Source: Modestobacter sp. DSM 44400
GTDB taxonomy: Bacteria > Actinomycetota > Actinomycetes > Mycobacteriales > Geodermatophilaceae
DNA length: 64,000 nucleotides
Assembly: GCF_900107175.1 (NCBI RefSeq)
Contig: NZ_FNOZ01000001.1
Location: forward strand, 248,001 to 312,000
Direction of reading: 5' to 3'
Part shown: positions 19,285-22,973 of the stretch, in pieces
Layout of the letters: every line of letters begins with the position of its first letter
Numbering within the stretch: the first letter of the stretch is position 1
Translations under genes and position numbers: made by a program
Notes under the pieces: model-generated
Seen by the model: the letters and a program-made list of their open reading frames with translations, nothing else
Told to the model about the DNA's origin: nothing
The model's database searches: none

Positions 19285-19476
19285 TCACGCGCGGTCCCGG
19301 GAGTCGCGAGTGAAGACCCCCCTGAGGCACCAGGCCACGAGACCGGCGGGGACCAGCCGGACGACGGGTCGTACGGGATCGAAGGGAGGCGACAGGAACT
19401 CGCTCACGACCACGCAGATTGTCAGCCAGGCGAGCACCCCAGTGCGGATGCGACGACGCCGCCTGCGCTCGTCCAC
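19285..19476 (-). CDS. Small membrane protein coupled to pcrA
   Basis: A 63-residue protein: a very basic head (MDERRRRRRIRTG), a hydrophobic segment (VLAWLTICVVVSEFLSPP), and a second (VVRLVPAGLVAWCL). Its GTG shares one base with the pcrA TAG stop, so it would be translated by termination-reinitiation. I recognise no family. The overlap and clean membrane pattern argue that it is real. Confidence 0.62.
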   Translation of the reverse strand: MDERRRRRRIRTGVLAWLTICVVVSEFLSPPFDPVRPVVRLVPAGLVAWCLRGVFTRDSRDRA

Positions 19477-21773
19477 TAGAGCTTGACGAGCGGGGCGTAC
19501 CGCAGCACCAGCCGCTTGGTGCCCCCGGACCCGAAGTCGACCGTCGCCTGCGCCTTGTCGCCAGCGCCGGTCACCTCCACCACGGTGCCCATGCCGAACG
19601 CGTCGTGGCTGACCCGGTCGCCCACGTCGACGTTGATCACCGCACGGTTTCCCGCCCCGCCGCGCAGGCCGCCGGTGGACAGCCCGGTCGCCGCCACCCG
19701 CGACTGCGCCGAGGCGTACCCGGTCGAGGCCACCGGGGCGGGGTCCATCCGCGCCCAGCGCACCGTGTCGCCCGGCAGCTCGTCGAGGAACCGGGACGGC
19801 GGGTTGTAGGCCGGCTGGCCCCAGCTGGTGCGCACCGTCGCCCGGGACAGGAACAGCCGTTGCTGGGCGCGGGTGATCCCGACGTAGGCCAGCCGGCGCT
19901 CCTCCTCCAGCTCGCGCGGGTCGCCGAGGGCCCGCAGGTGCGGGAAGACGCCGTCCTCCAGGCCGGTCAGGAAGACCACCGGGAACTCCAGGCCCTTGGC
20001 CGTGTGCAGGGTCATCAGCGTGACCACGCCGGCGTCGTCGCCGGTCACCGGGATCTGGTCGGCGTCGGCCACGAGTGACACCTGCTCCAGGAAGTCGGTG
20101 ACCGTCCCGCCGGGGTTGGCCGCCTCGAACTCCGCGGCCACCGAGATGAGCTCGTTGAGGTTGTCGACCCTGCCCTCATCCTGCGGGTCGGTGCTCACCT
20201 CCAGCTCGGTGAGGTATCCGGTCCGGTCCAGGATGCTCTCCAGCAGCGCCGCCGGGCCGGAACCCGTCTCGACCAGCTGCTCGAACTCCTCCAGCAGCGC
20301 GACGAACTCCTGGATCGCCTTGAGCGACCGGGTGGCCAACCCCGGCGCCTCCGGTGCGCGGCGCAACGCGGAGGCGAAGGCGATCCGCTCCCGGTCGGCC
20401 AGCTGCTCGATGCAGGCCTCGGCCCGCTCGCCGATGCCGCGCTTGGGGCTGTTGAGCACCCGCCGCAGGCTCACCACATCGGCGGGGTTGGCGACCACCT
20501 TCAGGTAGGCCAGCGCATCGCGCACCTCGCGTCGCTCGTAGAAGCGGACGCCGCCGACCACCTTGTAGGGCATCCCGACCCGGATGAAGACCTCTTCGAA
20601 GACCCGGGATGCGTTGTTGGTGCGGTAGAAGACCGCGATGTCTTTCGGCTGGGCCTTGCCCTCGTCGGTGAGCGCGTCGATCTGCTCGGCGACCCAGGCC
20701 GCCTCGTCGTGCTCGTTCTCGGCGACGTAGCCCTCGATCAGCTCCCCGTCACCGGCCTCCGACCACAGGTTCTTCGGCCGGCGCGAGGTGTTGCGGGAGA
20801 TCACCTGGTTGGCCGCGCGCAGGATGCGCTGCGTGGAGCGGTAGTTCTGCTCCAGCACGATCGTGGTCGCCTCGGGGTAGTCGCGCTCGAACTCGTCGAT
20901 GTTGCGGATCGTCGCGCCGCGGAAGGCGTAGATCGACTGGTCGGCGTCACCGACCACGCAGAGCTCGGCCGGCGGGACCGGCCCGCCGACCGGGCCGGTC
21001 AGCTCGCGGACCAGCACGTACTGGGCGTGGTTGGTGTCCTGGTACTCGTCGACCAGCACGTGGCGGAACCGGCGGCGGTAGTGCTCGGCGACGTCCGGGA
21101 ATGCCTGGAGCAGGTGCACCGTGGTCATGATCAGGTCGTCGAAGTCCATCGCGTGCGCCTCGCGCAGCCGCCGCTGGTACAGCCGGTAGGCCTCCGCGAG
21201 CACCTTCTCCGGCGGCGTCGTCGGGACGAAGGACTCCTCGTCGACCAGCTCGTTCTTCAGGTTCGACACCTGGTTGGCCAGGCTCCGGCCGGGATACCGC
21301 TTGCTGTCCAGGTCCAGGTCGCGGGCGACCATCGTCATCAGCCGGACGGAGTCGCCCTGGTCGTAGATGGTGAACGAGCTCTTCATGCCCAGTTTGCCGG
21401 CCTCGGCGCGCAGGATGCGCACGCACATCGAGTGGAAGGTCGACACCCACATCGCCCGGGCGCGCGGGCCGATGAGGTTGGCGACGCGCTCCTTCATCTC
21501 CCCGGCGGCCTTGTTGGTGAAGGTGATTGCCAGGACCTCGCCGGGCTGGGTGTGCCGGGCGCCGAGCAGGTAGGCGATCCGGTGGGTCAGCACCCGGGTC
21601 TTGCCCGACCCCGCGCCGGCCACGATGAGCAGCGGCCCCCCCTCGTGGACAACGGCTGCGCGCTGCGGGCCGTTGAGGCTGGCGAGCATCCGGTCGAGCT
21701 CGCGACCGGCCTGACCGGCCGTCGAGCGAGGGAGCGCGGCCGTGCCGGGGAGTGCTTGCTGCGGGCTGCTCAT
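19476..21773 (-). CDS. pcrA: ATP-dependent DNA helicase UvrD/PcrA
   Basis: A 765-residue superfamily 1A 3'-5' helicase for nucleotide-excision and replication-linked repair. Walker A is AGAGSGKT at residues 52-59 and Walker B is VDEYQDTNHAQY. Other helicase motifs follow (GDADQSIYAFRGA, LEQNYRST, LMTLHTAKGLEFPVVFL, and VGITRAQQRLFL). A C-terminal Tudor-like domain (VDVGDRVSHDAFGMGTVVEV) of the kind that contacts RNA polymerase is present. The 63-codon membrane-protein gene overlaps its stop. It is divergent from the chorismate mutase leader. Confidence 0.97.
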   Translation of the reverse strand: MSSPQQALPGTAALPRSTAGQAGRELDRMLASLNGPQRAAVVHEGGPLLIVAGAGSGKTRVLTHRIAYLLGARHTQPGEVLAITFTNKAAGEMKERVANLIGPRARAMWVSTFHSMCVRILRAEAGKLGMKSSFTIYDQGDSVRLMTMVARDLDLDSKRYPGRSLANQVSNLKNELVDEESFVPTTPPEKVLAEAYRLYQRRLREAHAMDFDDLIMTTVHLLQAFPDVAEHYRRRFRHVLVDEYQDTNHAQYVLVRELTGPVGGPVPPAELCVVGDADQSIYAFRGATIRNIDEFERDYPEATTIVLEQNYRSTQRILRAANQVISRNTSRRPKNLWSEAGDGELIEGYVAENEHDEAAWVAEQIDALTDEGKAQPKDIAVFYRTNNASRVFEEVFIRVGMPYKVVGGVRFYERREVRDALAYLKVVANPADVVSLRRVLNSPKRGIGERAEACIEQLADRERIAFASALRRAPEAPGLATRSLKAIQEFVALLEEFEQLVETGSGPAALLESILDRTGYLTELEVSTDPQDEGRVDNLNELISVAAEFEAANPGGTVTDFLEQVSLVADADQIPVTGDDAGVVTLMTLHTAKGLEFPVVFLTGLEDGVFPHLRALGDPRELEEERRLAYVGITRAQQRLFLSRATVRTSWGQPAYNPPSRFLDELPGDTVRWARMDPAPVASTGYASAQSRVAATGLSTGGLRGGAGNRAVINVDVGDRVSHDAFGMGTVVEVTGAGDKAQATVDFGSGGTKRLVLRYAPLVKL

Positions 21774-21853
21774 GACCCCGCCACTCTAAGCCGGGGCACC
21801 GACGGTCCCGCCGCTGCCGCAGGGCGCACTGGCCACTCCGCACCGACCTGTGG

Positions 21854-21859
21854 CACACT
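21854..21859 (+). promoter_or_regulatory. Candidate -10 for a leaderless leader peptide
   Basis: The hexamer CACACT ends seven bases before the GTG of the leader peptide, the spacing expected if transcription starts at that GTG. No clear -35 or Shine-Dalgarno site is seen. Confidence 0.4.
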
Positions 21860-21866
21860 CGGCCAC

Positions 21867-21929
21867 GTGCTTCGCCACCGCGAGTTTTACTACGGCCTCC
21901 GGGTTCCGGTGTCCGTCTCCGCTGGCTGA
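21867..21929 (+). CDS. Leader peptide with FYY run, upstream of chorismate mutase
   Basis: A 20-codon ORF, MLRHREFYYGLRVPVSVSAG, starts with GTG at 21867 and ends with TGA at 21927-21929. Phe-Tyr-Tyr at residues 7-9 are end-products of the chorismate branch that the downstream gene feeds. It is followed within 16 bases by an intrinsic terminator, and then by the chorismate mutase start at 22019. No Shine-Dalgarno sequence precedes it. The layout is that of a classical transcription attenuator. Confidence 0.75.
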   Translation: MLRHREFYYGLRVPVSVSAG

Positions 21930-21945
21930 ACAGCCACCGCACACG

Positions 21946-21978
21946 ACGCCCCGGGCCCACGGCCCCGGGGCGTTTTCC
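21946..21978 (+). terminator. Intrinsic terminator of the chorismate mutase attenuator
   Basis: ACGCCCCGGG (21946-21955) pairs perfectly with CCCGGGGCGT (21964-21973) and is followed by TTTTCC. This is one of the few hairpins in the window with a U-tract. It lies between the leader peptide and the structural gene. Confidence 0.82.
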
Positions 21979-22018
21979 GTCTCCTGGGGTCCAACGCCCT
22001 CCACCCCTGGAGGACCCC

Positions 22019-22315
22019 ATGAGCACCCGGACGATGGGCACCCCCACCGCCAGCACCGACTCCACCGCCGATCCGGCGGAGCGGATCGGCGAGCTGCGCG
22101 GCGAGATCGACGCCTGCGACGCCGCGATCATCGAGCTCGTCCAGCGCCGGCTGGCCATCTCCCAGGAGATCGGCGTGCTGCGCACGACCACCGGCGGCAC
22201 CCGTCTCTCACTGTCCCGTGAGCAGCAGGTGCTGTTCCGGTTCCGCAACGCGCTCGGCCCGGACGGCGCCTCGCTCGGCATGATGCTGCTCCGCCAGGGC
22301 CGCGGCCGGCTCTGA
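22019..22315 (+). CDS. Chorismate mutase, AroQ class
   Basis: A 98-residue all-helical enzyme converting chorismate to prephenate, the entry to Phe and Tyr synthesis. The sequence RIGELRGEIDACDAAIIELV with QRRLAISQEIG forms the first helices. The C-terminal GPDGASLGMMLLRQGRGRL closely resembles the ending of the M. tuberculosis cytoplasmic mutase Rv0948c, which also lies beside uvrD1. The ATG follows GGAGG. That site can pair with CCTCC about six bases upstream, so translation may also be masked. Controlled by the leader described at 21867-21978, by inference. Confidence 0.92.
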   Translation: MSTRTMGTPTASTDSTADPAERIGELRGEIDACDAAIIELVQRRLAISQEIGVLRTTTGGTRLSLSREQQVLFRFRNALGPDGASLGMMLLRQGRGRL

Positions 22316-22364
22316 CCCCTGCTCCCGGCCGAAGACTGTCGGTGGCCGGGGTGAGGATCGACAC

Positions 22365-22973
22365 GTGGACTCCTCCCCCGCTGCGGTGACCCGGCGGCTG
22401 TGGCCGCTGCTGGTGTCGGTGCACGAGGCCTTGCGGGCCGGGGTGGCGGTCAGCGCGGCGGTGCACGCCGCCCACGGCTGGAACCCCACCGCGGACCGGC
22501 ACCTGGACCACCAGCTCGTCCGTCGGGAGGCGATGGAGCGGCTGCGCCCCTGGGGCGCCGACCTGGACGATGCCGGCTCCGACCCGCTGCTGGAGCAGCA
22601 GCTCCGGCCCACCGACGTCGACACCGACAATCTCGGACTGCCGATGAGCGGGCTCATCCTGCGCACCTCGCGCGACGTCGTCCGCATCTGGCACTCGGAC
22701 GACGGCGAACTGCCCTCGGCCGACACCCACGGCCTGCGCGACTTCTACCGGCAGGAGCCGAGCGCGCAAACCCAATTGGCCTTCGGCGACGTGCCGGGCC
22801 GGGCACGCCCTGCGCGGTGCCACGTCGCCCTGCTATGGGCCGACAGCCGCGCCGCCCTCACCCGCCTGGAGCTCGTCCGCCCCTACGGCCACGTCGGCCG
22901 GCGCGTCCAGGTCGACTGGCGCATCGACCTCCACGGTCGGTTGCCCGCAGCCGACCCGACACCGGCGACCTAG
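22365..22973 (+). CDS. Hypothetical protein
   Basis: A 202-residue soluble protein without signal peptide, membrane segment or a motif I recognise. The middle (GLPMSGLILRTSRDVVRIWH) and the C-terminal part (ARCHVALLWADSRAALTRLE) look like alternating beta strands. GTG at 22365 has GAGGATC upstream. It lies 49 bases after chorismate mutase and ten bases before the PIG-L gene on the same strand, so the three may share transcription. Confidence 0.7.
   Translation: MDSSPAAVTRRLWPLLVSVHEALRAGVAVSAAVHAAHGWNPTADRHLDHQLVRREAMERLRPWGADLDDAGSDPLLEQQLRPTDVDTDNLGLPMSGLILRTSRDVVRIWHSDDGELPSADTHGLRDFYRQEPSAQTQLAFGDVPGRARPARCHVALLWADSRAALTRLELVRPYGHVGRRVQVDWRIDLHGRLPAADPTPAT

Follow-up and report, generated by a model that had tools for sequence, protein, structure and literature searches.

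A probable Phe/Tyr attenuator ahead of chorismate mutase in actinomycetes, with a sister arrangement ahead of type I DAHP synthase

The stand-alone chorismate mutase (CM) gene of Modestobacter sp. DSM 44400 is preceded by a short leader ORF bearing consecutive Phe and Tyr codons and by an intrinsic terminator, an arrangement which, judging from its sequence and that of its relatives, is in all likelihood a classical ribosome-mediated transcription attenuator. This attenuator very probably lets CM be made when Phe and Tyr run short, and only then. It was located in a window of 64 kb, by which we mean the whole stretch of DNA analysed, and was followed through the genus, the family, the order and the class of this actinomycete.

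Most parts of the locus had been described in an earlier note on this DNA, and that description was borne out: the short ORF, its consecutive Phe-Tyr-Tyr codons, the perfect 10-bp GC stem, the CM start at 22019 and the hexamer CACACT seven bases upstream of the leader are all present. The features, in order along the window, are the following:

19476-21773, minus strand: UvrD/PcrA-type helicase gene, divergent from the leader and CM
21829..21834, plus strand: weak and tentative -35-like CTGGCC, 19 nt upstream of the -10-like element
21854..21859, plus strand: -10-like element CACACT with TGG directly before it, ending 7 nt before the leader GTG; hexamer conserved across CM loci
21867..21929, plus strand: leader ORF, probably leaderless, with a GTG start and 20 codons encoding VLRHREFYYGLRVPVSVSAG followed by a stop; supported by the ORF and its conservation
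21885..21893, plus strand: control codons TTT TAC TAC (Phe-Tyr-Tyr), from the genus alignment
21892..21916, plus strand: helix 1:2, starting inside the last Tyr codon and with one mismatch in the window genome, from folding and covariation
21901..21913, plus strand: segment 2, the 5' side of the antiterminator, common to helix 1:2, from folding and covariation
21945..21958, plus strand: segment 3, the 3' side of the antiterminator, common to the terminator, from folding and covariation
21946..21976, plus strand: intrinsic terminator, with stem 21946-21955/21964-21973 and a short T run to 21976, from covariation
22009..22013, plus strand: Shine-Dalgarno (SD) sequence GGAGG of the CM gene, from the sequence
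22019..22315, plus strand: stand-alone type II chorismate mutase of 98 aa, the presumed regulated gene, identified by Pfam CM_2 (E 7.7e-10) and by NCBIfam PRK07857 and TIGR01808 above cut-off

By eye, CTGGCC or TTGGCC occupies the -35-like site in several sequences of the genus. The leader is the sole short ORF on either strand of the 64-kb window to combine a [C/T]A...T hexamer 5-8 nt upstream with at least 3 F/Y in 5 codons; no ORF of this type arose when the window was dinucleotide-shuffled 20 times. Scanning positions 21400-22600 against Rfam 15 returned three sub-threshold matches, none of them covering the leader, and nothing reached the gathering score in the same scan of 12 CM loci. 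Furthermore, a simple scan for F/Y/W-rich short ORFs in the stretch of about 500 nt before the type II DAHP synthase gene and before trpE in the window's genome found none. A small inverted repeat, TGGCTGAACAGCCA, lies over the leader stop codon (window 21923-21936); most of the genus retains this mini-hairpin, which is left out of the mechanism below because most other genera of the family are without it. Helicase sequence also adjoins the leader in loci L157 and L164 and, by eye, in other loci.

Phe and Tyr, and just these two, derive from the precursor that CM makes, and the proposed mechanism would read the supply of both. Transcription would start at or next to the leader GTG, and the ribosome would therefore translate the leader right behind RNA polymerase. 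With Phe-tRNA or Tyr-tRNA uncharged, the ribosome would stall on TTT TAC TAC and cover the 5' arm of helix 1:2, thereby freeing segment 2 to pair with segment 3 as the antiterminator, so that helix 3:4 would not form and CM would be transcribed. With both tRNAs charged, the ribosome would reach the stop codon and cover part of segment 2, and the terminator would form; were the leader left untranslated, helix 1:2 would form and the terminator could form as well. Either Phe or Tyr may be the dominant amino acid in such a response. The element shares four features with attenuators of the trp/pheL type, namely leader codons that are those of the pathway end product, an intrinsic terminator between leader and gene (here with a covarying stem and a short T tract), an antiterminator and a terminator that exclude each other, and a 1:2 hairpin, competing with the antiterminator, that has the control codons at its 5' arm. 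The pheL leader of E. coli is itself SD-led and is not known to be under Tyr control.

In 127 of 149 CM loci, a set that includes repeats of the same genome and amounts to 105 distinct peptides, a [C/T]A...T hexamer lies 6-7 nt ahead of the leader start, vs 32 of 1177 other GTG/ATG of the same DNA. The leader rule passed by 130 of the 149 loci itself requires such a hexamer 5-8 nt upstream; among the 19 loci that fail it, 10 hold F/Y leaders with another -10 or another start. In actinobacteria, this spacing of the -10 places the transcription start at the start codon. From its spacing, the conserved -10 suggests a promoter with a leaderless start, and the frequency of the hexamer before leaders, compared with its rarity elsewhere, supports the earlier proposal that the leader may be leaderless.

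Within the genus, CM is present in 22 of 23 genomes and the leader lies upstream of it in 22/22 loci, with the motif FxYG(H/L/R)R(V/S)P(V/A)SVxAG, in which the Phe and the last Tyr are invariant and the codon between them encodes Y, S, P or F. At the family level, CM was found in 109/112 genomes, and the leader pattern with Phe/Tyr codons was matched by all 58 CM loci read (L003-L060; some genomes contribute two loci, and 49 sequences are distinct). The 49 distinct loci are alignable through the terminator, the stem of which has mismatches in L032, and the T tract is short and partly C in some relatives. Counted over 105 distinct leaders, F/Y make up 342 of 630 residues inside the leader cluster and 27 of 1609 outside it, a contrast that is partly by construction because the cluster was picked as the densest stretch; the F/Y share in seven window proteins, about 4.6%, is above that of the leader residues outside the cluster.

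The conservation of the peptide allows two other readings to be weighed. The tail after FxY is nearly invariant in amino acids within the genus, as might be expected of an arrest peptide, in which nascent FxYGHRVPVSV would stall the ribosome on sensing a metabolite. We regard this as highly improbable, for the tails change across families. Indeed, the leaders L149 and L103 of family f15 differ by a frame change after FFYG that gives the unrelated tails GPGTPAPVAA and GPGLRRPWSA, respectively, and helix 1:2 is kept in both; L095 and L097 likewise have foreign tails and retain the hairpin. In L011, a double change in helix 1:2 from A-U to G-C preserves the base pair and alters the peptide from His to Arg and from Val to Ala. 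The local conservation of the tail is thus attributed to the constraints of the helix. That the leader encodes a small functional protein would fit the conservation of the short ORF within the genus but is barely credible, since across families it is mainly the F/Y codons that are kept, the tails and N-termini varying or changing frame.

Folding yields three mutually exclusive helices, 1:2, 2:3 (the antiterminator) and 3:4 (the terminator), in which the antiterminator pairs 21901-21913 with 21945-21958 and the terminator stem spans 21946-21973. When the 5' arm of helix 1:2 is removed and the 3' arm of the terminator is incomplete, the 5' half of the terminator is predicted to pair with segment 2. 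In 55 representatives (109 loci anchored, 89 of them distinct), every helix was better with its native partners than with all 2000 permutations of them, at -16.1 vs -12.8 kcal/mol for helix 1:2, -19.3 vs -15.6 kcal/mol for helix 2:3 and -25.3 vs -20.5 kcal/mol for helix 3:4. This set leaves out L049, L104, L105, L108 and L121, which gave no anchor, and L111, L113 and L115, which had been dropped earlier.

Covariation was counted in an alignment of 40 of 45 prepared leaders (L103, L120, L143, L096 and L097 left out). The number of cells changed on both sides was 17 for helix 1:2, 34 for helix 2:3 and 22 for helix 3:4, vs shuffled means of 5.7, 14.1 and 8.1, and for each helix 0 of 500 shuffles reached as high; slid registers gave fewer such cells and lower pairing than the native ones. 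At one and the same pair of the antiterminator, C-G, G-C and U-A types all occur. Other counts are unexceptional: the pairs with a change on both sides number 4 vs 2.7 in helix 1:2 (reached by 91/500 shuffles) and 5 vs 3.8 in helix 2:3 (84/500), and the further pair types of helix 3:4 number 11 vs 9.7 (141/500). The covariation evidence is strong, yet the counts ignore shared descent, and related sequences inflate such shuffles. The helix 1:2 mismatch of the window genome is missing from the other 21 sequences of the genus.

An alternative antiterminator had been sought in related spacers and was found, covarying across families. The search of related loci for a hairpin kept without the short ORF or its Phe/Tyr codons left the claim of attenuation unrefuted. 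The conserved codons and the covarying antiterminator thus lend strong support to the proposal of the earlier note that charged tRNA-Phe/Tyr would control transcription of this gene. The same observations bear on another reading, in which a terminator of the usual intergenic sort, serving, for example, to stop transcription antisense to the divergent helicase gene, has an ORF beside it by chance. Hairpins rich in GC and followed by a T run are frequent, and the weaker model matches looked at in other parts of these genomes are mostly plain terminators; however, the terminator is conserved together with helices 1:2 and 2:3, the -10 and the ORF with its F/Y codons, and none of the window shuffles gives such an ORF, which makes this explanation scarcely tenable next to attenuation.

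The attenuator extends well beyond the family. CM is present in 284 of 298 genomes drawn from the order, and 219 of the 298 match the covariance model of the family leaders at E <= 0.01, a count from which stricter filters lose the weak matches and in which some matches are ordinary terminators. A short ORF with at least 2 F/Y in 5 codons precedes CM in 38 of 40 other-family loci hand-picked for spread among the matches listed; about 36 of the 40, rather than 38, look intact, because L113 is decayed and L108 is without a strong terminator. The leader is also present in 19/19 further loci picked by model matches. Picks of this latter kind are biased towards carriers, L131-L149 having been chosen since model R1 matched them and L244 and L248 since a second model, R2, did; L150 was left out of use. 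Leaders linked to CM occur in 14/14 order families read upstream of CM (the order has 16; f6 and f10 were left out), with L157 supplying family f14. Among the 29 CM loci of the class-level set, 23 carry the leader, including all 12 read in the genus f33g97, which lies outside the order and, by its genome size and abundance, looks like Streptomyces.

The losses seen all fall in one family. The attenuator is absent or decayed in nine CM loci from eight genomes, all in family f8: L111 and L183 (one genome), L115 and L193 (f8g48), L113 and L190 (f8g19), L192 and L195 (f8g31), and L198 (f8g45). L113 keeps a remnant leader and its terminator is gone. L108, from family f11, has a weak terminator candidate at best, and the leaders of f3, f11 and f2g28 fit the standard helix layout poorly. 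The leader of L118 (f8g19) carries an extra palindromic insert before its Phe/Tyr codons, and its frame remains open. Among the ten secondary or weaker R1 matches and L161, two loci, L164 and L157, are true CM elements with CM downstream; the other matches were considered as further copies of the attenuator and rejected, as they look like ordinary terminators.

The earlier note had added a second level of control, at translation, by a hairpin hiding the CM ribosome site. The pairing segments on which it relied, CCTCC (21998-22002) with GGAGG (22009-22013) and TGGGGTCC with GGACCCCA, do exist as letters in the window but are not kept within the genus. In the window genome the SD is predicted to be 99% paired, TGGGGTCC/GGACCCCA folds over it, and a consensus fold of the genus also places a stem there, UCUCC with GGAGG. 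However, 13% of 60 shuffled spacers hide the window SD equally well, and the pairing letters of the hairpin vary from one member of the genus to another. Across 38 of 41 relatives (L003-L043; three loci without an SD or terminator pattern were left out), SD accessibility is 0.265 in native vs 0.255 in shuffled spacers, with a mean rank of 0.49; the shuffles hide the ribosome site to about the same degree, whereas an SD-sequestering switch would hide it more than chance does. Translational control by a hidden ribosome site was therefore not borne out, and attenuation joined by such a hairpin is unlikely; we retain attenuation of transcription.

Model R2, built from 40 order-wide leaders, was run on 197 class genomes and matched 107 of them at E <= 0.01, many of the matches being weak. 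Some of the better ones, in f31 and f28 among other families, precede a gene identified as type I DAHP synthase by NCBIfam PRK08673 and TIGR01361 above cut-off. A type I DAHP synthase match at E <= 1e-20 is present in 80 of the 197 genomes. The gene was placed in each locus by in-frame tblastn, and 69 of 72 loci could be read. An aromatic leader behind a -10-like hexamer is found in 36 of the 69, spread over 11 families outside the window's order, and the other 33 are without one. These leaders, met among loci L239-L243, L247, L252-L254, L256, L258 and L259-L328, are short ORFs with runs of Phe, Trp and Tyr codons, several of them with terminators, e.g. MQRNFWRFYGYRPDTPVACRALR.

The two sets of leaders differ in their Trp codons. 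At equal thresholds (at least 3 aromatics in 6 codons, distinct peptides), Trp occurs in the codon runs of 25/32 DAHP synthase leaders vs 0/86 CM leaders (p 1e-19) and, counted by family, in 10/11 vs 0/15 (p 2e-6). At unequal thresholds, namely at least 2 aromatics for CM and at least 3 for DAHP synthase, the figures are 29/36 DAHP synthase vs 2/130 CM leaders, and of the two CM leaders counted as Trp-bearing, one is the decayed L113 and the other comes from the wrong ORF having been chosen in L119. Family f41 departs from the pattern, its DAHP synthase leaders being devoid of Trp. The leader codons seem to fit the pathway branch because DAHP synthase feeds Phe, Tyr and Trp, whereas CM feeds Phe and Tyr only. 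We consider it reasonably probable that actinomycetes share one kind of leaderless aromatic attenuator, with Phe/Tyr codons before CM and, in most cases, Phe/Tyr/Trp codons ahead of type I DAHP synthase, that the control codons report the place of the enzyme in the pathway, and that lineages have switched the enzyme that bears it.

Several known systems resemble the element in part. In Corynebacterium glutamicum, the leader peptide AroR, with Phe-Tyr-Phe residues, acts on aroF, reportedly in response to Phe and not to Tyr (Neshat 2014, as summarized in PMC11802643). As described there, it is likewise an actinobacterial leader peptide acting by ribosome stalling on a gene of the aromatic pathway; it differs in that the operon under its control contains aroF, a gene for DAHP synthase, rather than CM, and the likeness is one of description. 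The window element precedes CM, and it is in other families that a similar element stands before DAHP synthase. The pheL-pheA system of E. coli, as outlined in PMC11802643, also uses a leader peptide through which Phe-charged tRNA controls a gene for chorismate mutase activity, but it is proteobacterial and its enzyme is a bifunctional CM-prephenate dehydratase.

Among Actinobacteria, the trp, ilvB, leuS and trpS leaders are alike in having a leader peptide and usually a terminator and unlike in responding to other amino acids, according to the accounts in PMC1262725 and PMC8079986. By its title, a 2020 paper by Canestrari (cited in PMC13236596) concerns leaderless poly-cysteine attenuators of mycobacteria, which would thus be leaderless short ORFs sensing an amino acid; they differ in that the amino acid is cysteine and in that, at the mycobacterial cys leaders, a conserved terminator hairpin was not seen in the 2005 survey of Actinobacteria (PMC1262725). 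RNA-seq of Streptomyces lividans is reported to have given 8 leaders, most described as leaderless and none listed for Phe/Tyr (PMC8079986). We found no CM attenuator reported for Actinobacteria in the literature searched, and an earlier report is possible. The 2005 survey stated that it had observed no conserved RNA structure ahead of the phenylalanine and tyrosine operons (PMC1262725), and the CM attenuator would fill this gap in what that survey saw of Phe/Tyr RNA regulation.

The proposed attenuator illustrates how the two end products of the CM branch point could themselves set it. Furthermore, the leaders form a natural series for setting codon choice against pathway position, and their alignment across families offers ready natural variants for testing leaderless attenuation. 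The spread of this Phe/Tyr attenuator is unexpectedly broad, and its codon logic deserves testing.
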